Assembly: GCF_018860665.1 (NCBI RefSeq)
Contig: NZ_JAHKPK010000011.1
Span: forward strand, 1-64,000
Length of the DNA: 64,000 bases
From: Pacificibacter marinus
GTDB taxonomy: Bacteria > Pseudomonadota > Alphaproteobacteria > Rhodobacterales > Rhodobacteraceae
Direction: 5' to 3'
Position numbers and translations under genes: made by a program. Below, piece after piece: positions 1,224 through 9,976 of the stretch. Under the pieces are notes generated by a model that did not search any database, was not told where the DNA came from, and saw only the letters and a program-made list of their open reading frames with translations. How positions within the stretch are numbered: the first letter of the stretch is position 1; each line of letters starts with the position of its first letter.

Positions 1224-2078
1224 ATGATTCCAGCGGCGTTTGAATACTATCGCCCGACAGATATGGACGGTGTTTTAGCCATCCTGGCCGAGCATGGGGA
1301 TGATGCTCGTGTTCTTGCGGGCGGGCATAGCTTGATCCCAATGATGAAGTTGCGCATGGCAGAGGTGCCGCATCTTATTGATTTGCAAGATGTCGGCGGA
1401 CTAAAAGGAATTACAGTCGAAGGCGGCACAATCCGCCTTGGCGCGATGACCACACAAACCGAAATCATCGGCAGCGATACTTTGACTGCGGCGGCGCCTA
1501 TTTTGCGCGAAGCCTCTTTGCAAATTGCTGATCCACAAGTGCGCTACATGGGGACGATTGGCGGTAATGTTGCCAATGGCGATCCGGGCAATGACATGCC
1601 GGGGTTGATGCAATGTCTTGATGCGACCTTTCATTTGATCGGACCTGATGGCACTCGCTATGTTGCTGCGCGTGATTTTTATGAAGCGGCTTACATGACT
1701 GACCGCGAAGACGACGAAGTTTTAACCGCAGTGTCTTTTGACCAGCCGGTAGGCGGCTACGCTTATGAGAAACAAAAGCGCAAAATCGGTGATTACGCGA
1801 CGGCTGCTGCTGCGGTGCAAATCGTGAAAGAGGGCGGCAAATGCACGTCTGCCTCAATCGCGATGACAAACCTCAGTGACACGCCGATTTATTCGCAAGA
1901 GGCCGGCGCGGCTTTGGTTGGCACGGTTGTGGATGATGCGGCGATGGACGCCGCCGTTGCGGCGATGCTCGGCGATATTGACCCGACTGAAGACAACCGT
2001 GGGCCGATCGAATTCAAACGCCATGTGGCATCTTTGATCTTGCGCCGTGCGATCGCACGGGCGTGGTCACGGGCGTAA
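1224..2078 (+). CDS. coxM: CO dehydrogenase medium (FAD) subunit CoxM
   Basis: 284 residues, usual length for the FAD-binding subunit of molybdenum CO dehydrogenase. Both signature FAD loops are present: AGGHSLIPMMKLR near residue 32 and TIGGNVANGDPGNDMPG near residue 111. The C-terminal CO_deh_flav_C domain follows. CoxM passes electrons from the 2Fe-2S clusters of CoxS to quinone. The start is set by a strong AGGGAGG site 8 bases upstream. It is followed 12 bp later by coxS, giving the M-S-L order usual for form I enzymes. Confidence 0.95.
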   Translation: MIPAAFEYYRPTDMDGVLAILAEHGDDARVLAGGHSLIPMMKLRMAEVPHLIDLQDVGGLKGITVEGGTIRLGAMTTQTEIIGSDTLTAAAPILREASLQIADPQVRYMGTIGGNVANGDPGNDMPGLMQCLDATFHLIGPDGTRYVAARDFYEAAYMTDREDDEVLTAVSFDQPVGGYAYEKQKRKIGDYATAAAAVQIVKEGGKCTSASIAMTNLSDTPIYSQEAGAALVGTVVDDAAMDAAVAAMLGDIDPTEDNRGPIEFKRHVASLILRRAIARAWSRA

Positions 2079-2090
2079 AGGGAGAACATT

Positions 2091-2585
2091 ATGTCAAATA
2101 AAATGCACATCAAGCTGACTGTGAATGGCGAAGCGCACGAATTTCTTGCCGAGCCACGCGAGCTGTTGATCCACACATTGCGCGAGCGGCTGGACATTAC
2201 GGGGCCACATATCGGTTGTGAAACAACACATTGCGGTGCCTGCACCGTGACGATGAATGGCAAGTCTGTGAAATCTTGTACGGTTTTCGTCGCACAAGCC
2301 AATGGGGCCGATCTGACCACAATCGAGGGCATCGGCGATCCAGACAATCTGCACGCATTACAAACGTCGTTCAAAGAACATCACGGGCTGCAATGTGGGT
2401 TTTGTACCCCCGGTATGATCACCCGCGCCGCCAAGTTTTTGGAAGAAAACCCAAATCCGACTGAAGAAGACGTGCGCTTTGGTATGGCGGGCAACTTGTG
2501 TCGCTGCACGGGGTACCAAAACATCGTGAAAGCGATCCTCGCCACGGCGGACGAGTTGAACGCAGCTAAGGAGGCGGCAGAATGA
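2091..2585 (+). CDS. coxS: CO dehydrogenase small (2Fe-2S) subunit CoxS
   Basis: 164 residues. The N-terminal plant-type ferredoxin domain carries [16 protein letters not shown]...SC, and the C-terminal helical domain carries CGFCTPGM and CRCTGYQNI. These give the eight cysteines for two 2Fe-2S clusters. The subunit links the Mo-Cu site in CoxL to FAD in CoxM. The start follows GGGAGAAC. The last codons overlap coxL by 4 bp (ATGA), so the two are translationally coupled. Confidence 0.95.
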
Positions 2586-4996
2586 AGGACGATATCACCC
2601 GCGAAGATCGCGTCGATGCTTTGGGCGGCATGGGCTGTAAACGCAAACGTGTTGAAGATGCGCGCTTCACCCAAGGCAAAGGCAACTATGTCGATGACAT
2701 CAAATTGCCCGGCATGCTGTTTGGCGATTTTGTGCGCTCTCCCTACGCACACGCACGGATCACATCGATCAACAAAGAGGCCGCTTTGGCCATCGACGGC
2801 GTTGTTGCCGTTCTAACGGCCGAAGATTTGGCGCCACTTGGCTTGCATTGGATGCCCACGCTTGCGGGCGACAAACAGATGGTTTTGGCAGACGGTAAAG
2901 TGCTGTTCCAAGGTCAAGAAGTGGCCTTTATCGTTGCCAAAGATCGCTATGTTGCCGCCGACGCAGTTGAAATGCTCGATGTGCAATATGAAGAACTTCC
3001 TGTCATCACTGATCCTTATGAAGCGCTGCAATCTGACGTGGTTCTGCGCGAAGATCTGGACACGAATGTGCCCGGCGCGCATGGCCCACGCAAACACCAC
3101 AACCATATTTTTACATGGGAAGTGGGCGATGAGCCTGCGACGAACCAAGTCATGGATGACGCAGAAGTCGTGGCAGAAGAATCCATGTATTATCACCGCA
3201 CGCACCCTTGTCCGCTTGAGACCTGTGGGTCTGTTGCGTCTATGGACAAAATCAACGGCAAGCTGACCCTATGGGGCACCTTCCAAGCGCCGCATGTTGT
3301 GCGCACAGTTGCGTCTATGTTGTCTGGTATCGAAGAGCATAACATCCGCGTTGTCTCGCCTGATATCGGGGGTGGTTTTGGCAACAAAGTTGGCGTTTAT
3401 CCGGGGTATATCTGTTCCATCGTCGCCTCCATCGTGACGGGCAAGCCTGTTAAATGGGTCGAAGACCGTATGGAAAACCTGATGTCCACCGCCTTTGCGC
3501 GCGACTACTGGATGAAGGGTAAAATCTCGGCCACTAAGGACGGCAAAATCACCGGTCTGCATTGTCATGTGACAGCCGACCACGGTGCCTTTGATGCCTG
3601 TGCCGATCCGACCAAATTCCCTGCTGGATTTATGAACATCTGTACAGGGTCCTACGATATTCCTGTGGCTTACCTTGGGGTTGATGGGGTTTACACCAAC
3701 AAAGCGCCGGGCGGTGTGTCATATCGCTGTTCGTTCCGTGTGACCGAAGCTGTCTACTTTATCGAGCGGATGATCGAAGTTCTGGCCATCAAGTTGAACA
3801 TGGATTCAGCTGAACTGCGTCGGATCAACTTTATCCGCAAAGATCAGTTCCCGTACAAGGCCGCCTTGGGCTGGGAATACGATTCTGGGGATTACCACAC
3901 AGCATGGGACAAGGCGCTGAAAGCCGTCGATTATGATGGGTTGCGGGCCGAACAAGCCCAGCGTGTGGAAGACTTCAAAGCTGGCAAAACCCGCAAACTT
4001 ATGGGCGTTGGTCTGTCGTTCTTTACCGAGATCGTTGGCGCTGGTCCTGTGAAAAACTGTGACATCCTTGGGATGGGCATGTTCGACAGCTGTGAAATCC
4101 GTATTCACCCGACGGGCTCTGCGATTGCGCGTCTTGGTACGATTTCGCAAGGCCAAGGTCACGCGACAACATTCGCGCAAATTCTTGCCACGGAAATCGG
4201 CCTGCCTGCGGATAGTATCACCATCGAAGAAGGCGATACAGATACGGCGCCTTATGGTCTTGGCACATATGGGTCACGCTCGACCCCTGTGGCGGGGGCG
4301 GCCACAGCCCTTGCAGGTCGTAAAATCCGCGCAAAAGCGCAGATGATCGCGGCTTACCTTTTGGAAGTGCACGACAGTGATGTCGAATTTGATGTGGATC
4401 GTTTCACAGTCAAAGGCGCGCCTGAAAAGTTCAAAACCATGAAGGAAATCGCTTACGCCGCCTATAACCAAGCCATTCCAGGTTTGGAACCCGGCTTGGA
4501 AGCGGTCAGCTATTATGATCCGCCCAACATGACCTATCCTTTCGGCGCATATGTCTGCGTGATGGATGTCGATGTTGATACAGGTGTGACAGACATTCGG
4601 CGCTTTTACGCGCTTGATGACTGTGGCACACGCATCAATCCGATGATCATCGATGGTCAAATCCATGGCGGTTTGACTGAGGCGCTGGCTGTGGCTTTGG
4701 GGCAGGAAATTGCCTACGACAAACAAGGCAACGTGAAAACCGGTACATTGATGGACTTCTTCCTGCCCACAGCATGGGAAGTTCCAAACTATGAAACCGA
4801 TTTTACCGTCACCCCAAGCCCGCATCACCCGATCGGTGCAAAAGGTGTTGGTGAAAGCCCGCACGTGGGCGGTGTTCCGTGTTTCTCAAACGCGGTCAAC
4901 GATGCCTTCCGCGCCTTTGGTCTGACCCACACCAATATGCCACACGATCACTGGCGCATTTGGAAAACGGCCAACGCCCTTGGCTTGCACGATTAA
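2582..4996 (+). CDS. coxL: Form I CO dehydrogenase large (Mo-Cu) subunit CoxL
   Basis: 804 residues, close to the Oligotropha CoxL length. The catalytic loop reads [14 protein letters not shown], with the Cu-ligand cysteine at about residue 383. Form I enzymes carry AYxCSFR and form II AYRGAGR, so this is a form I, bona fide CO-oxidising enzyme, but with Ser in place of the usual Ala at the first position. Molybdopterin-cytosine-dinucleotide contacts ([28 protein letters not shown]) and the catalytic Glu loop [13 protein letters not shown] are present. The reaction is CO + H2O to CO2 + 2H+ + 2e-. It acts as a (CoxLMS)2 complex at the inner face of the cytoplasmic membrane. Confidence 0.96.
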
Positions 4997-5059: not shown

Positions 5060-5938
5060 ATGACTTGGACTTCGCTTCAAACTGCTCTGGCAGATCAAAA
5101 TTATATTGCCTCAGACGATCTGGCTGTGGCGCTTCATTTGGCTTTGTCGCTTGAGCGGCCGATGCTGCTTGAAGGCGCTGCGGGCGTTGGCAAAACCGAA
5201 GTGGCGCGTGTGATCGCGGCGGCGCGTGACACCAAACTGATCCGTCTGCAATGTTATGAAGGCTTGGACGCCGCACAAGCGATTTACGAGTGGAATTATC
5301 AACGACAACTGCTTGCGATCCGTGCTGGCAGCGCATCGGGGACAGAGAGCGGGCAAGAGATCGAACAGCGCATTTTTTCGCGCGACTACCTGTTAGAACG
5401 CCCGCTGTTGCAGGCCATCACCCAAGACACGCCCCCTGTGCTGTTGATCGATGAGATCGACCGCGCGGATGAAGAATTCGAAGCCTTTTTGCTGGAAATG
5501 TTGGCGGAAAACCAGATCACTGTGCCCGAGCTTGGCACCATAACCGCGACCACAAAACCGATTGTGATTTTGACCTCGAACGGCACGCGCGATCTGTCGG
5601 ACGCTCTGCGCCGCCGGTGTTTGTATGCTTATGTTGAATACCCGGATCGCGATACAGAATTGGCGATTTTGCAGACCCGCTGTGCTGATGTCGAGGCGCG
5701 CTTGGCCGATCAAATCGTTGGTTTTGTGCAAAAGCTGCGCGAACAAGAGCTTGAAAAAACACCGGGTATTGCCGAGATGCTTGATTTTGCCGCAGCCCTG
5801 ATGGGGCTTGGCATCGCCGATCTATCACACGATCCCAAAGCCCTGCACGCAACATTGACCACGTTGCTGAAAACCCAAAGTGACCGCGCAAATATTACGC
5901 AAGATGTGGCACAGCGCATTGCAGGCAAAGCCGCATGA
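5060..5938 (+). CDS. coxD: MoxR-type AAA+ ATPase CoxD
   Basis: 292 residues with Walker A GAAGVGKTEVAR near residue 38, Walker B LLIDEIDRADEE near residue 130, and sensor-1 TSNGTRDLSDALRRR. CoxD is the MoxR-family chaperone known to be needed for building the [CuSMoO2] cluster of CO dehydrogenase in Oligotropha, working with the VWA protein CoxE. An AAGGA site precedes the ATG. It overlaps coxE by 4 bp (ATGA). Confidence 0.93.
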   Translation: MTWTSLQTALADQNYIASDDLAVALHLALSLERPMLLEGAAGVGKTEVARVIAAARDTKLIRLQCYEGLDAAQAIYEWNYQRQLLAIRAGSASGTESGQEIEQRIFSRDYLLERPLLQAITQDTPPVLLIDEIDRADEEFEAFLLEMLAENQITVPELGTITATTKPIVILTSNGTRDLSDALRRRCLYAYVEYPDRDTELAILQTRCADVEARLADQIVGFVQKLREQELEKTPGIAEMLDFAAALMGLGIADLSHDPKALHATLTTLLKTQSDRANITQDVAQRIAGKAA

Positions 5939-7119
5939 GCCGGATCACCAAATTTGCAGGTCGCGATCCAGGCCCCGCCGCACGTATGGGCGGTTTCATC
6001 GCCCATATGCGCGACAACGGTCTGCGCCTTGGGGTGAGGGAAACCCAAACGGCGCTCGCCGCTTTGGCATGTTTGGACGACATCACTCCCGCGCAAGCGC
6101 GTGCTGCGCTCAAGGCGGTGTGTGCCAGCTGCAAAGAGGACGCCGAGCGGTTTGATGACCTGTTTAATTCTTACTGGATGGACATGGGCCGCGTGCGCCA
6201 AAAGGTGATCTCGACGCCCAATCCGGCCAAGCCCACGGACGATATGCATTCCTCGCGTGATGCCAAAGGCGAAGACAGCTCTGGGACGGGCGATGCGACC
6301 CGTCCAGATGGCGGCGAGGGCGAGTCGACAAGTGACGGTGAAGGCAAATTGATTGCTGTTGAGATGCGCAACCTCGCGCGCCGCGATCTGCGTGACTTGG
6401 TGCGCCCTGAAGAAGTGAAAGACGCTGAAGAGGTTGCACGTCGTCTTGGCGCAGCCCTGCGGGATCGTCGCTCGCGCCGCCGGATTGCTGCGCGCAAAGG
6501 CGACCGTTTGCATTTTCGCAAAATCATTCGGCGGTCACTATCGACGGGGGGGGAACCTTTGCATCTTTACCGCAAAAAACGCCCTGATCGCAGTTCCAAA
6601 ATCGTCGCGATTTGTGATGTCTCTGGCTCGATGAGTGTCTATGCGCAGGTGTTTTTGGCCTTTCTTGCGGGGCTGATGCGCGCTGATGCGGACTCTGACG
6701 CCTATGTGTTTCACACGCGGTTGGTTCGGATCACCGAAGCCTTGCGTGACAAAGACCCAATGCGTGCCGTTGGGCGTATGTCGCTTATGGCGGATGGCTT
6801 TGGCGGTGGGTCCAAAATCGGCGCATGTCTTGGGCGGTTCTCAGACACCTATGCACGCCGCTTTGTTGATGGGCGCTCGGTGGTGATCATTTTTTCTGAT
6901 GGATTCGACACCACAGGGCCAGACCATATCGATGCGGCGCTGAGCAAACTTAGCAAACGCGGCTGTCGGATCATTTGGCTGAACCCGCTGAAAGGTTGGA
7001 AAGATTACGAACCCATGGCCGCTGGTATGGCCGCCGCCTTGCCGCATATCGATTTGTTTAGCGCGGCCAATACTTTGTCTGATTTGGCCGCTTTGGAAAA
7101 GGAGCTTGTTCGATTATGA
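5935..7119 (+). CDS. coxE: VWA-domain CO dehydrogenase maturation protein CoxE
   Basis: 394 residues. The C-terminal von Willebrand factor A domain carries a MIDAS motif DVSGSM near residue 226, followed by FSDGFDTTG and the IIWLNPL strand. The middle segment is rich in charged and Gly/Ser residues. CoxE is the usual partner of the MoxR ATPase CoxD in Cu/S insertion into CoxL. It is coupled to coxD and coxF by 4-bp ATGA overlaps at both ends. Confidence 0.92.
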   Translation: MSRITKFAGRDPGPAARMGGFIAHMRDNGLRLGVRETQTALAALACLDDITPAQARAALKAVCASCKEDAERFDDLFNSYWMDMGRVRQKVISTPNPAKPTDDMHSSRDAKGEDSSGTGDATRPDGGEGESTSDGEGKLIAVEMRNLARRDLRDLVRPEEVKDAEEVARRLGAALRDRRSRRRIAARKGDRLHFRKIIRRSLSTGGEPLHLYRKKRPDRSSKIVAICDVSGSMSVYAQVFLAFLAGLMRADADSDAYVFHTRLVRITEALRDKDPMRAVGRMSLMADGFGGGSKIGACLGRFSDTYARRFVDGRSVVIIFSDGFDTTGPDHIDAALSKLSKRGCRIIWLNPLKGWKDYEPMAAGMAAALPHIDLFSAANTLSDLAALEKELVRL

Positions 7120-7913
7120 GTTTTACAGAAATTCTTTCAACTGAGCTTACCACTGCCGCGCATGATCTGCGGGCAAAGGAAGAACCCTTTGCCTTTGCCA
7201 CCATCGTGCGCACAGTGGGCACCACAGCGGCCAAGCCCGGCGCAAAAGCCTTGATTGGTTCTGATGGCGCCATCGTGCAGGGGTTTTTAGGCGGTGGATG
7301 TATCCGAGGTGCTGTGAAACGGGCAGCGCTTAAAGCGATTGAAAGCGGCAGACCGCAGTTGATTTCCGTGGCCCCTGATGAGGCGTTGAAAGACCTCGGC
7401 GTGGCTTCTGGCGCTGTCACTGCTGGTGTGACTTACGCGCGCAATGGCTGTCCGTCGCGAGGCACGATAGATATCTTTATTGAGCCGATCTTGCCGATGC
7501 CTGAGTTGGTTTTATACGGCGATTTGCCGATTGCCGATGCGCTTGCGCGCTTGGCGCCACAACTGCATTGGTCGGTCAGCCGTGAGGCGGATGCGCTGCC
7601 AATCACGCCGCGCTTTCGCGCCATTGTTGTGGCCACCCAAGGCCAAGGCGACTTGGACGCATTGATAGCTGCGGTGCAATCTGAGGCAGATCACGTGGCC
7701 TTTGTTGGCAGTGGTAAAAAGTTCGCGGTGCTGGCTGAAAAGCTCAAGGCCGCTGGCCTGTCTGAAGCGCGGATTGCCAAAATTTCCTCGCCCGCGGGTC
7801 TTGATATCGGCGCTGTGACGCCAGAAGAAATTGCGCTCTCTGTTATGGCAGAACTCACGCAATTGCGCCGCGCAGACAAAGGTATAAATCAAAATGGTGC
7901 GCGCGATGAATAA
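7116..7913 (+). CDS. coxF: XdhC-family maturation factor CoxF
   Basis: 265 residues of the XdhC/CoxF family: an N-terminal XdhC domain (TIVRTVGTTAAKPGAKALIG ... GFLGGGCIRGAV) and a C-terminal Rossmann-like domain (AFVGSGKKFAVL). Family members bind and sulfurate the molybdenum cofactor and hand it to the apo-enzyme. Position after coxE agrees with coxF. The start codon overlaps the coxE stop (ATGA), and the 3' end overlaps the following MobA-like gene. Confidence 0.88.
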   Translation: MSFTEILSTELTTAAHDLRAKEEPFAFATIVRTVGTTAAKPGAKALIGSDGAIVQGFLGGGCIRGAVKRAALKAIESGRPQLISVAPDEALKDLGVASGAVTAGVTYARNGCPSRGTIDIFIEPILPMPELVLYGDLPIADALARLAPQLHWSVSREADALPITPRFRAIVVATQGQGDLDALIAAVQSEADHVAFVGSGKKFAVLAEKLKAAGLSEARIAKISSPAGLDIGAVTPEEIALSVMAELTQLRRADKGINQNGARDE

Positions 7914-8514
7914 CGTCGATGCGATCATTTTGGCGGGCGGTTTGTCGCGTCGCATGGGCGCGCAAAACAAGTTGCTTTTGGATTGGGGCGGCGTGCCAAT
8001 CATCCGCAAAGTGGTGCAAACTTATTTGGATACAAATATCGCGCAAGTCACCGTTGTGACAGGGTTTGAAGCGGGTCGCGTGCAAGAGGCCTTGAACGAT
8101 TTACCGCTGCATTGGTGTCATAATCCTGCGTTTGAACAGGGACAAAACACCACTGTTGCTGCGGGTTTGCGCCAGCCGTCAGATGCGGACGTGACCTTGA
8201 TTGGGTTGGGCGATCAACCTTTGCTTGAGCCTGCTGACCTGCGTGCGTTGCTTGACCTGCATTTCGCCAGTGACCCGCATAAAATTTCCATTCCCGTTGA
8301 TGGCGACAAGCGCGGCAATCCCGTTGTGTTGCCCAACGGTTTACGCCCGAGACTTTTGGAAAATCGCGCGCAGCCGGGCTGTAAGCGATTTATCCAGATG
8401 AACTCCGAATTTGTGCAACGGCAAAGCCTGAGCGCTGCGGGGTTTTACACCGATATCGATACGCCCGAAATCTATGCCCATCATCAAGGAGACCCCCATG
8501 AAATCTCTCACTAA
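7894..8514 (+). CDS. MobA-like molybdenum cofactor nucleotidyltransferase
   Basis: About 206 residues with the nucleotidyltransferase signature AIILAGGLSRRMGAQNKLLL at the N-terminus and the metal-binding region GLGDQPLL. The family (MobA/MocA/GlmU-like NTP transferases) adds CMP or GMP to molybdopterin. CO dehydrogenase uses the cytosine dinucleotide form, so a MocA-like activity is the logical role. An alternative ATG at 7906 begins nearer the conserved motif. The start overlaps coxF by 20 bp. No gene of this family is among the classical Oligotropha cox genes. Confidence 0.85.
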   Translation: MVRAMNNVDAIILAGGLSRRMGAQNKLLLDWGGVPIIRKVVQTYLDTNIAQVTVVTGFEAGRVQEALNDLPLHWCHNPAFEQGQNTTVAAGLRQPSDADVTLIGLGDQPLLEPADLRALLDLHFASDPHKISIPVDGDKRGNPVVLPNGLRPRLLENRAQPGCKRFIQMNSEFVQRQSLSAAGFYTDIDTPEIYAHHQGDPHEISH

Positions 8515-8590
8515 ATGGATCAAGGCACGATTGACCCTCACACCTGCGCAGGCCGATGCTTTGGCCCGCATGAAATTCCCCTGCTGTTAA
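8498..8590 (+). CDS. 30-residue conserved-looking microprotein ending in Cys-Cys
   Basis: An unlisted small gene of 30 codons. It begins MKSLTKWIKARLTLTPAQAD and ends ARMKFPCC. An AAGGAG ribosome site lies 6-7 bases before the ATG, inside the 3' end of the MobA-like gene, and the stop is 14 bp before the coxG ATG. The spacing and the strong ribosome site argue that it is translated. The first half is basic and amphipathic, and the C-terminus is a free Cys-Cys pair. Function is unknown. Thiols in a CO dehydrogenase maturation operon could hold Cu or sulfur for the Mo-S-Cu site, but this is speculation. Confidence 0.65.
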   Translation: MKSLTKWIKARLTLTPAQADALARMKFPCC

Positions 8591-8604
8591 TAAAAGGAAA
8601 AACA

Positions 8605-9057
8605 ATGGAACTTGCCGACGAAATTAGAATCGCCGCCCCAATGCATGTGGTCTACGCCGCATTGAACGACCCAGAAGTGCTAAAGCAGTGCATCCCTGGA
8701 TGTGAAGAGCTGATCAAGCATTCAGACACGGAGCTGGAAGCCAAAGTTGTGCTAAAGGTCGGCCCTGTGAAAGCAAAATTTGGTGGCAACGTGACGCTGG
8801 ATACGGCGGGTGCACCCGAGGCGTTTTCATTAACAGGTCAAGGCAATGGCGGCACGGCGGGCCACGCTAAAGGCGGCGCTGATGTGACGTTGACAGCGGA
8901 TGGCGACGAGACGATCCTAGTGTATAATGCCAAGGCTGAAATCGGCGGAAAACTTGCACAGCTTGGCAGCCGTTTGATCCAAAGCACGGCCAAAAAACTG
9001 GCGGCTAAGTTCTTTAAATCTTTCGCAGAGATTGTATCGCAAGAACATGCAGCCTGA
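8605..9057 (+). CDS. coxG: CoxG (SRPBCC-fold CO dehydrogenase membrane-anchoring protein)
   Basis: 150 residues from the ATG at 8605, which has AAGGAAA just upstream; an in-frame ATG at 8515 is less likely because it has no such site and lies across the upstream small gene. The sequence is typical of the CoxG/START family: an N-terminal IAAPMHVVYAALNDPEVLKQ, the CIPGCEEL loop, and a hydrophobic C-terminal helix (LIQSTAKKLAAKFFKSF). CoxG recruits CO dehydrogenase to the cytoplasmic membrane, and recent work on actinobacterial CoxG links it to quinone delivery. It overlaps coxI by 11 bp. Confidence 0.93.
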   Translation: MELADEIRIAAPMHVVYAALNDPEVLKQCIPGCEELIKHSDTELEAKVVLKVGPVKAKFGGNVTLDTAGAPEAFSLTGQGNGGTAGHAKGGADVTLTADGDETILVYNAKAEIGGKLAQLGSRLIQSTAKKLAAKFFKSFAEIVSQEHAA

Positions 9058-9976
9058 GCGGATCACCTATGTGGAACACGCCGCCGATGTCATGGCGCAT
9101 GCGGTTCGGCTGCATGCGTCTGACAAAGGTTTCGTGCTGGTCACCTCCATTGATATCAAAGGGGGGGCCGCGCGCGAACTTGGGTCGATCGCTGTGGTTG
9201 ATCCAAACGGTGAAATGTTTGGCTATATGTCCAATGGCTGCATCGATCGCGACATCCAACTGCGTGCGATGCAAATGGTCGGAAGTGATCACGCACGAGT
9301 TATGCGATATGGCGAAGGCTCGTCGTCCTTTGATCTGAAATTGCCCTGTGGCGGTGCCTTGGAGCTGTTGTTAGATCCATCGCCCGACATGGATGCGATT
9401 GAGCGGGCCTATCGTGATTTGCAAAACAGAACGGCCAGCACGCTGTGCTTTGCTGTGCCAGATAGACCAGAGCCTATTTGCTTTGAATACACGCCCAAGC
9501 CGCGTCTGTGTTTGGCGGGGCGGGGGGCTGTGTTTCGGGCCACGGCGCAGGTTGCAGCAACAGCGGGATTTGAGGTGGCACTGTATTCACCAGAGGCAGA
9601 GGACCTAGAGGCCTTGGCCGATGTGCCAAGCGTTGAGGCGATCTTGCTGACCAGTCCAAGTGCAGTACCAGACTTAAAGATGGATTCTTATTGCGGGTTT
9701 TTGACCCTGTTTCATGATCACGATTGGGAACCTATGTTGCTGGCCGCAGCTGTCAAAACCGACGCGCGGTTTATCGGCAGTTTGGGCAGTCGTAAAACCC
9801 ATGCGATCCGTTTGGAGACGCTCAAAGCGATGGGAGTTGACCCCGCACAGCTTGACCGATTGCGCGGCCCGATTGGGTTGGTGCCATCTTTGCGCAGTGC
9901 GCCGTTTATCGGAATTTCGTCCATCGCTGAACTCGTTGACGCGTTCCCGCGTACCATTTTTGTAAAGGACATTTAA
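9047..9976 (+). CDS. coxI: Second XdhC-family maturation factor, CoxI-like
   Basis: 309 residues from the ATG at 9047; the upstream TTG at 9032 lies deeper inside coxG and is not needed. It has an XdhC N-terminal region (VLVTSIDIKGGAARELGSIA ... GYMSNGCIDRDI) and a Rossmann C-terminal half (GSLGSRKTHAIRLETLKAMG, GLVPSLRSAPFIGISS). The same family as CoxF but longer and divergent, matching CoxI of the Oligotropha cluster. Probably the second cofactor-handling factor in CO dehydrogenase maturation. It is the last gene of the cox operon. Confidence 0.82.
   Translation: MQPERITYVEHAADVMAHAVRLHASDKGFVLVTSIDIKGGAARELGSIAVVDPNGEMFGYMSNGCIDRDIQLRAMQMVGSDHARVMRYGEGSSSFDLKLPCGGALELLLDPSPDMDAIERAYRDLQNRTASTLCFAVPDRPEPICFEYTPKPRLCLAGRGAVFRATAQVAATAGFEVALYSPEAEDLEALADVPSVEAILLTSPSAVPDLKMDSYCGFLTLFHDHDWEPMLLAAAVKTDARFIGSLGSRKTHAIRLETLKAMGVDPAQLDRLRGPIGLVPSLRSAPFIGISSIAELVDAFPRTIFVKDI

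Follow-up and report, generated by a model that had tools for sequence, protein, structure and literature searches.

Directly upstream of coxG in the form-I carbon monoxide dehydrogenase (CODH) operon of Pacificibacter marinus lies a 30-codon gene whose product, here called the microprotein, ends in two cysteines. Our preferred reading, to which we give a probability slightly below one half (about 0.47), is that it acts as a membrane-side partner of CoxG, resembling the C-terminal tail of some CoxG proteins, and would be an accessory to the form-I CODH operon of Rhodobacterales. At the level of sequence, the case comprises coding conservation, the position of the gene, the Cys-Cys end, a predicted cationic amphipathic helix and co-occurrence with coxG. 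The window referred to below is the whole stretch of DNA analysed, 64,000 nucleotides in length.

A small gene between the MobA-like gene and coxG

The neighbourhood of the microprotein gene is a form-I cox cluster in the order coxM, coxS, coxL, coxD, coxE, coxF, MobA-like gene, microprotein gene, coxG and a gene for a second XdhC-like protein. Its features in the window are the following.

1224..2585, + strand, coxM (1224-2078) and coxS (2091-2585)
2582..4996, + strand, coxL; TIGR02416 at 1411 bits (cut-off 991), active-site loop SYRCSFR
5060..5938, + strand, coxD (AAA ATPase)
5935..7119, + strand, coxE (VWA_CoxE)
7116..7913, + strand, coxF (XdhC family)
7894..8514, + strand, MobA-like nucleotidyltransferase, overlapping the start of the microprotein gene
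8486..8491, + strand, sequence AAGGAG, Shine-Dalgarno of the microprotein gene
8498..8590, + strand, microprotein gene; 30 aa, with basic amphipathic helix 2-12, helix 16-24 and the tail MKFPCC at the end (helices predicted)
8594..8598, + strand, sequence AAGGA, probable coxG ribosome site, immediately 3' of the microprotein stop
8605..9057, + strand, coxG (PF06240); 150 aa, without the C-terminal tail of Oligotropha CoxG
9032..9976, + strand, second XdhC/CoxI family protein, start not settled

The active-site loop of form I CoxL is usually AYRCSFR, and that of the CoxL of the window (2582-4996) reads SYRCSFR. A protein of the MHYT and LytTR type is encoded at 16-1113, just 5' of coxM, and brings to mind CoxC, the CO regulator of Oligotropha, as presented in the available text of PMC11347149.

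The microprotein ORF runs from the ATG at 8498 to a TAA stop ending at 8590 and encodes a 30-residue product (MKSLTKWIKARLTLTPAQADALARMKFPCC). The first-pass annotation had placed a small gene with an AAGGAG site between the MobA-like gene and coxG, and the details were verified: AAGGAG ends 6 nt 5' of the start, the MobA-like gene (7894-8514) shares 17 bp with the beginning of the ORF, and coxG starts at 8605, 14 nt past its end. In the near-twin genome G010, the same peptide is encoded with five nucleotide changes, all five of them synonymous. Scored against the cox genes, the codon log-odds is 1.67 in the microprotein frame (frame 0) versus -28.16 and -0.83 in the other two, and the frame-0 value is reached in 0.35% of 2000 shuffles; taken alone, this measure hardly distinguishes the microprotein frame from the third one, in which coxG is read. 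The coxG frame stays open in the 5' direction up to an ATG at 8515, within the microprotein gene, giving an ORF of 180 aa (8515-9057), so that a gene caller choosing this ATG for coxG hides the microprotein. The gene had also been described as unannotated. This holds for three of the four Rhodobacterales cox plasmid records checked in the PLSDB gene table, itself incomplete, from which the ORF is absent, and fails for the fourth, from Marivivens, where it is listed as hypothetical protein WP_301547026.1.

Conservation and selection in the family

The coxL model TIGR02416 was found in 101 of the 394 genomes of the window's family, a set with roughly one genome for each genus. The 9 kb located 3' of coxL, or less at contig ends, were taken from 100 of these genomes (G141 was left out), and five (G036, G304, G288, G027 and G386) fell outside the 95 loci judged, being too short or without the needed coxD, coxE or coxF matches. 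In the first search, covering 61 relatives, the peptide was found in G010 and also in G025, G026 and G032 (E 0.002-0.03), every copy lying directly 5' of coxG and ending in KFPCC; the weaker matches of that search (E 0.2-0.9) were not of the microprotein kind. Across the 95 loci, a microprotein homologue is present in 66 (63 with and three without an adjacent coxG) and absent in 29. A Cys-Cys-stop ORF lies 11-28 nt 5' of coxG in 63 of the 75 loci with an adjacent coxG; the 40 nt 5' of the remaining cox genes, inspected in 207 cases, never contain one.

The alignment (A2) comprises 64 members; it omits G078 and G098, in which the Cys-Cys end is present but no canonical start gives an ORF of 24 codons or more. 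The start codon is ATG in 62 of them, and 51 have a Shine-Dalgarno match of at least 4 nt. In 52 of the 64, the start overlaps or abuts the stop of the upstream gene (22/23 for mobA, 30/41 for coxF), which suggests translational coupling to that gene. All recognised members end in Cys-Cys, with KFPCC in 41 of the 64, RFPCC in 12 and a few variants; a second, smaller flavour ends in P[RK]CC and occurs in G338, G359, G371, G229, G256, G082 and G204, which fall in one part of the CoxD+CoxE tree. Manual reading of all three frames in the 12 coxG loci lacking a Cys-Cys-stop revealed, bar a remnant in G363, no microprotein that ends differently, so that the Cys-Cys end, although it served to recognise members, seems to be no mere search artefact. 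Any further Cys, beyond the terminal pair, is found in only 12 of the 64 members. Two probable decayed copies were noted and left uncounted, namely NPFPCC reading into EE before coxG in G363 and a TTIRFPCC read-through in G405, and G078 (L326) carries a truncated remnant of the gene. Plasmid copies from Pseudosulfitobacter pseudonitzschiae (KSPCC end), Aestuarium, Marivivens and Roseivivax stand outside all counts.

Conservation of the reading frame between related cox clusters had been named by the first-pass annotation as one test of the gene, and the frame proved to be conserved, in 63 of the 75 coxG loci and with a pN/pS of 0.32. Over 126 distinct sequences compared in 454 non-independent pairs (members are shared between pairs), with the last five codons omitted, pN/pS is 0.317 in frame versus 1.426 and 2.342 in the shifted frames. 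In 38 disjoint pairs, there are 145.5 synonymous differences over 382.2 sites versus 109.5 nonsynonymous differences over 1,099.8 sites. Judged by these substitution patterns, purifying selection acts on the microprotein reading frame. A small, conserved in-operon ORF under purifying selection is what characterises an accessory microprotein of an oxidoreductase operon, of the kind exemplified by CydX, and such an ORF was found here. Scans of the 64 members gave no family above cut-off in Pfam (best E 0.0022, HTH_OrfB_IS605, three members) or in NCBIfam (best E 0.054, one member), and the marks of a copper chaperone were not found: the terminal Cys-Cys is the only conserved cysteine motif, with no conserved CXXC, and Pfam assigned the members to no known Cu-binding family.

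Taxonomic range

A search of 385 alphaproteobacterial genomes yielded matches in 11 at E 0.01, of which only those in G000, G253 and G098, all of the window's own family, are credible. The eight non-family matches, with E between 4.5e-4 and 0.01, were rejected as chance, as the end of the model is not aligned, and G358:C1:2111420 (E 1.6e-6) was likewise put down to chance, with no stop after SRCC and a distance of 43 kb from coxL. Form-I coxL is present in 12 genomes outside the family, one of which, G480, was left out of the locus comparison. A pattern scan of a collection of 85,000 species returned at least 119 stretches, and among the matches listed 83 precede coxG; the pattern demands KFPCC and an ATGGA start and is blind to other forms. 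Eighty stretches were judged by eye and 39 by script, 15 script negatives then being read, and the 83 consist of 81 assigned by script plus L208 and L264 assigned by eye. Of these listed coxG-linked stretches, 79 belong to Rhodobacterales and four to metagenome-assembled genomes named only as Alphaproteobacteria, the organism table spanning 82 of the 83 (L264, from an uncultured Nioella, is not in it). The other 36 of the at least 119 look like chance matches. By its sequence distribution, the microprotein is conserved across dozens of genera, and the family looks like an invention of the Rhodobacterales.

Association with coxG

On a CoxD+CoxE tree of the 95 loci (built without L323, L315 and L316, the last two being fragments), the presence of the microprotein and of an adjacent coxG agree in 80 loci, with both present in 63 and neither in 17, whereas 12 loci have coxG only and three the microprotein only. 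The microprotein thus occurs in 63 of the 75 loci with an adjacent coxG versus 3 of the 20 without (Fisher 1.4e-8, uncorrected for descent). In 12 independent tree pairs, about 7 differ in the same direction, 0.2 in the opposite one and 5 show no difference, and a sign test on them gives a median p of 0.016-0.031 (range 0.004-0.22). For the MobA-like gene, the same tree of 95 loci gives no comparable signal of a link with the microprotein. These results lend support to the link with coxG behind the earlier suggestion of a CoxG partner or membrane tether. As one deletion can remove adjacent genes without any functional partnership, co-loss with coxG counts as support and not as proof.

Three loci keep the microprotein without an adjacent coxG, as intact ORFs in G289 and G147 and without a canonical start in G078, and in Roseivivax sp. 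THAF40 (L356:3700-4240) the microprotein is intact and coxG is broken. Conversely, in 12 of the 75 clusters CoxG is tail-less (149-159 aa) and the microprotein is missing, so that CoxG can manage in its absence. Together, the copies without an adjacent or intact coxG and the 12 coxG loci without the microprotein point to an accessory and not an essential part. All 20 genomes without an adjacent coxG have a CoxG homologue elsewhere, the best being 46-56% identical to that of the window.

C-terminal tails of CoxG

Past its START domain, CoxG of Oligotropha (205 aa) has the stretch KKKGWLKK and a hydrophobic helix, after which come Cys-Cys, His-Ala-His and, with a further Cys, Ile-Cys-Ser (L016:6001-6618). 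By its residues this tail is a possible metal site, of which the available text of PMC4240915 makes no mention. The same tail pattern is found on CoxG of G671, G793, Rhizobium sp. SL42 and Bradyrhizobium betae, so that outside Rhodobacterales a Cys-Cys tail occurs in five of the nine CoxG encoded directly after coxF, Oligotropha included. The other four (G674, G742, Shinella HZN7 and Rhizobium jaguaris) lack Cys-Cys, and the last two lack any tail. The three CoxG-like genes between coxL and coxD (G746, Paraburkholderia and Caballeronia) all encode a tail that lacks Cys-Cys, and no Cys-Cys was found in the tails of 25 CoxG homologues in other settings. A tblastn search of the plasmid collection with the Oligotropha tail matched five records, all five annotated as CoxG.

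In the 75 family loci, CoxG has 147-161 aa and the tail is absent. No Cys-Cys-stop ORF precedes coxG in the five clusters whose CoxG carries the Cys-Cys tail, and the fused tail and the microprotein were not seen in the same cluster, five tailed clusters being available for this comparison. Homology between the microprotein and the CoxG tails was looked for with hhalign and not found (probability 0.35 on a scale of 0-100, E 0.17); what we claim is therefore a likeness of architecture and not of descent. The length of the CoxG tail was considered as the cause of the absence of the microprotein and rejected, since CoxG of the 12 clusters without it is also 149-159 aa long.

Predicted shape and proposed role

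The stretch before LTPEQ is predicted to form a cationic amphipathic helix, with a mean net charge of +4 over the 64 members. Of the angles tried, 100 degrees gives the largest hydrophobic moment, and in 92% of the members the moment is larger than the average for shuffled sequences. The basic helix and C-terminal Cys-Cys proposed from the single sequence are thus both borne out as conserved features of the family. AlphaFold2, run with 39 alignment rows, predicts two helices, residues 2-12 and residues 16-24, followed by an extended tail with the Cys-Cys (mean pLDDT 78.8, pTM 0.29), a modest model of a 30-mer. An export signal was not evident by eye.

As a membrane-side partner of CoxG, the microprotein would have its basic N-terminal helix lying along the cytoplasmic membrane on the inner side, and its short second helix would hold the flexible KFP-Cys-Cys tail outward. 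It would work with CoxG, the START-domain protein linking CODH to membrane quinone, and would do the job of the basic helix and Cys-Cys tail present on CoxG of Oligotropha, Bradyrhizobium and others and absent from CoxG of Rhodobacterales. The two thiols may make or regulate the contact, through a disulfide or by binding a soft metal. A more specific and rather unlikely version has the pair as a thiol relay or soft-metal clip in electron transfer through CoxG, in which its reduced or metal-bound state would gate the docking of CODH or the hand-over to quinone; Cys-Cys fused to the CoxG tail (Oligotropha/Bradyrhizobium type) and Cys-Cys on a free microprotein (Rhodobacterales) would then be two architectures of one device. 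If the microprotein replaces the CoxG tail, its place would be at the membrane with CoxG and not in Cu/S insertion.

Weighing of alternative roles

A soft metal is passed on by vicinal C-terminal cysteines in mercuric reductase, a precedent for the proposal of the first-pass annotation that the microprotein carries Cu(I) or sulfide for assembly of the [CuSMoO2] site, with the C-terminal Cys-Cys as ligand. The position of the pair at the very end, the operon shared with coxDEF and the intact ORFs kept without an adjacent coxG in G289 and G147 agree with such a carrier, as does the available text of PMC4240915, in which the sulfur source for the CODH site is called unknown and the Cu path is a proposal. 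According to that text, CODH from coxE and coxF mutants of Oligotropha contains no or almost no Cu, and the coxG mutant has no particulate CODH and a sevenfold generation time. Table 1 of the same source gives, for coxG-mutant versus wild-type CODH from the same growth (H2), 1.48 versus 1.47 mol/mol Cu, 2.17 versus 1.53 mol/mol S and 0.31 versus 0.22 mol/mol Zn; its text, unlike the table, describes the mutant enzyme as Cu-deficient, Zn-rich and 51% active, which would favour the carrier. CoxG itself is presented as a quinone-binding link to the respiratory chain in the available text of PMC13240472, our source for Kropp 2025 on CoxG. For the Cu motif proposed for Oligotropha CoxF, MCPSHGTM (PMC4240915, available text), the Cys is present in all 95 loci, and the first Met is retained in seven, namely 6 of the 29 loci without and 1 of the 66 with the microprotein (Fisher 0.003). 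The seven are G410, G357, G363, G405, G309, G406 and G209, with the microprotein only in G410. This is the trade-off expected if the microprotein substituted for part of the CoxF Cu site, but the seven cases amount to two changes on the tree within one clade, with no independent pair, and beyond tilting the odds marginally towards the carrier and away from the CoxG partner they were not used. Set against the carrier are the coxF-coxG interval of Oligotropha, which holds no microprotein-like ORF, the 29 of 95 loci that lack the gene while keeping the CoxF Cys, and the Oligotropha coxG mutant, which is without the Cys-Cys tail and yet, by Table 1, has normal Cu and S. We therefore regard a Cu/S carrier as unlikely, and membrane-side help to CoxG as more likely than Cu/S supply to CODH.

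The overlapping or abutting starts at coxF or mobA, together with the three copies kept without an adjacent coxG (two as intact ORFs), would also suit a small structural subunit of CODH or of a CoxD-CoxE-CoxF complex, or a factor in the assembly of either, that acts independently of CoxG. We hold this to be unlikely, the microprotein being absent from 17 of the 20 loci in which coxD, coxE and coxF are present without coxG next to them. Those same three copies, and the one persisting beside the broken coxG of Roseivivax THAF40, also count against a regulatory leader peptide, since such a peptide should be found only with its downstream gene. Under that explanation, translation or stalling at Pro-Cys-Cys-stop would set the translation of coxG, for example in response to cysteine or copper, in keeping with the short distance to coxG, the coxG ribosome site adjoining the stop, and the copper-responsive small ORFs and nascent-chain regulators described in the available text of PMC9973294 and PMC9426467. 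Conservation, however, extends to the amphipathic helix and to the residues leading up to the end and is not confined to the end itself, and synonymous codons vary within the FPCC stretch, with CCC preferred; a leader peptide seems quite improbable. That the ORF is open by chance or through overlapping constraint is hardly credible: its mere 30 codons and the close log-odds of the third frame would allow it, but not the conservation across dozens of genera and the in-frame selection. On this sequence evidence, the ORF at 8498-8590 is a genuine gene and more than chance.

Significance and comparison with known systems

Rhodobacterales are prominent among marine CO oxidisers, and the passage of electrons from CO through CoxG into the quinone pool has only lately become a topic of study. 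With the microprotein family recognised, many genome annotations could be completed, and as a single 30-codon gene it makes a role at the CoxG-quinone step testable by deletion. No small operon protein is named, and no earlier account of the microprotein was found, in the available portions of PMC4240915, PMC13240472, PMC13203968 and PMC4103551.

Several small proteins invite comparison with the microprotein. YbdD/YjiX (DUF466) of CstA/BtsT is also small, ends in Cys-Cys and is encoded beside a membrane protein gene; it represents another family, and none of the 64 members had a Pfam match to DUF466. CydX is a transmembrane subunit and, unlike the microprotein, is not known to have a Cys-Cys end; the small ORF of Rhodobacter capsulatus compared here is that of CutF. 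As an accessory microprotein of cytochrome bd (37 aa), CydX is likewise a small protein of a respiratory enzyme complex (PMC4325964, available text). The copper-responsive ORFs of R. capsulatus and Bordetella (a uORF) are also small and lie 5' of a copper-related gene, but they regulate that downstream gene, in R. capsulatus by way of a nascent exported protein (PMC9973294 and PMC9426467, available text), whereas some copies of the microprotein persist without the downstream gene. The Cys-Cys tail of CoxG in Oligotropha/Afipia OM5, Bradyrhizobium betae, SL42, G671 and G793 is, like the microprotein, linked to CoxG and combines a basic patch, a helix and Cys-Cys; it differs in being fused to the CoxG C-terminus, in the hydrophobic character of its helix and in the extra His and Cys that follow the Cys-Cys pair.
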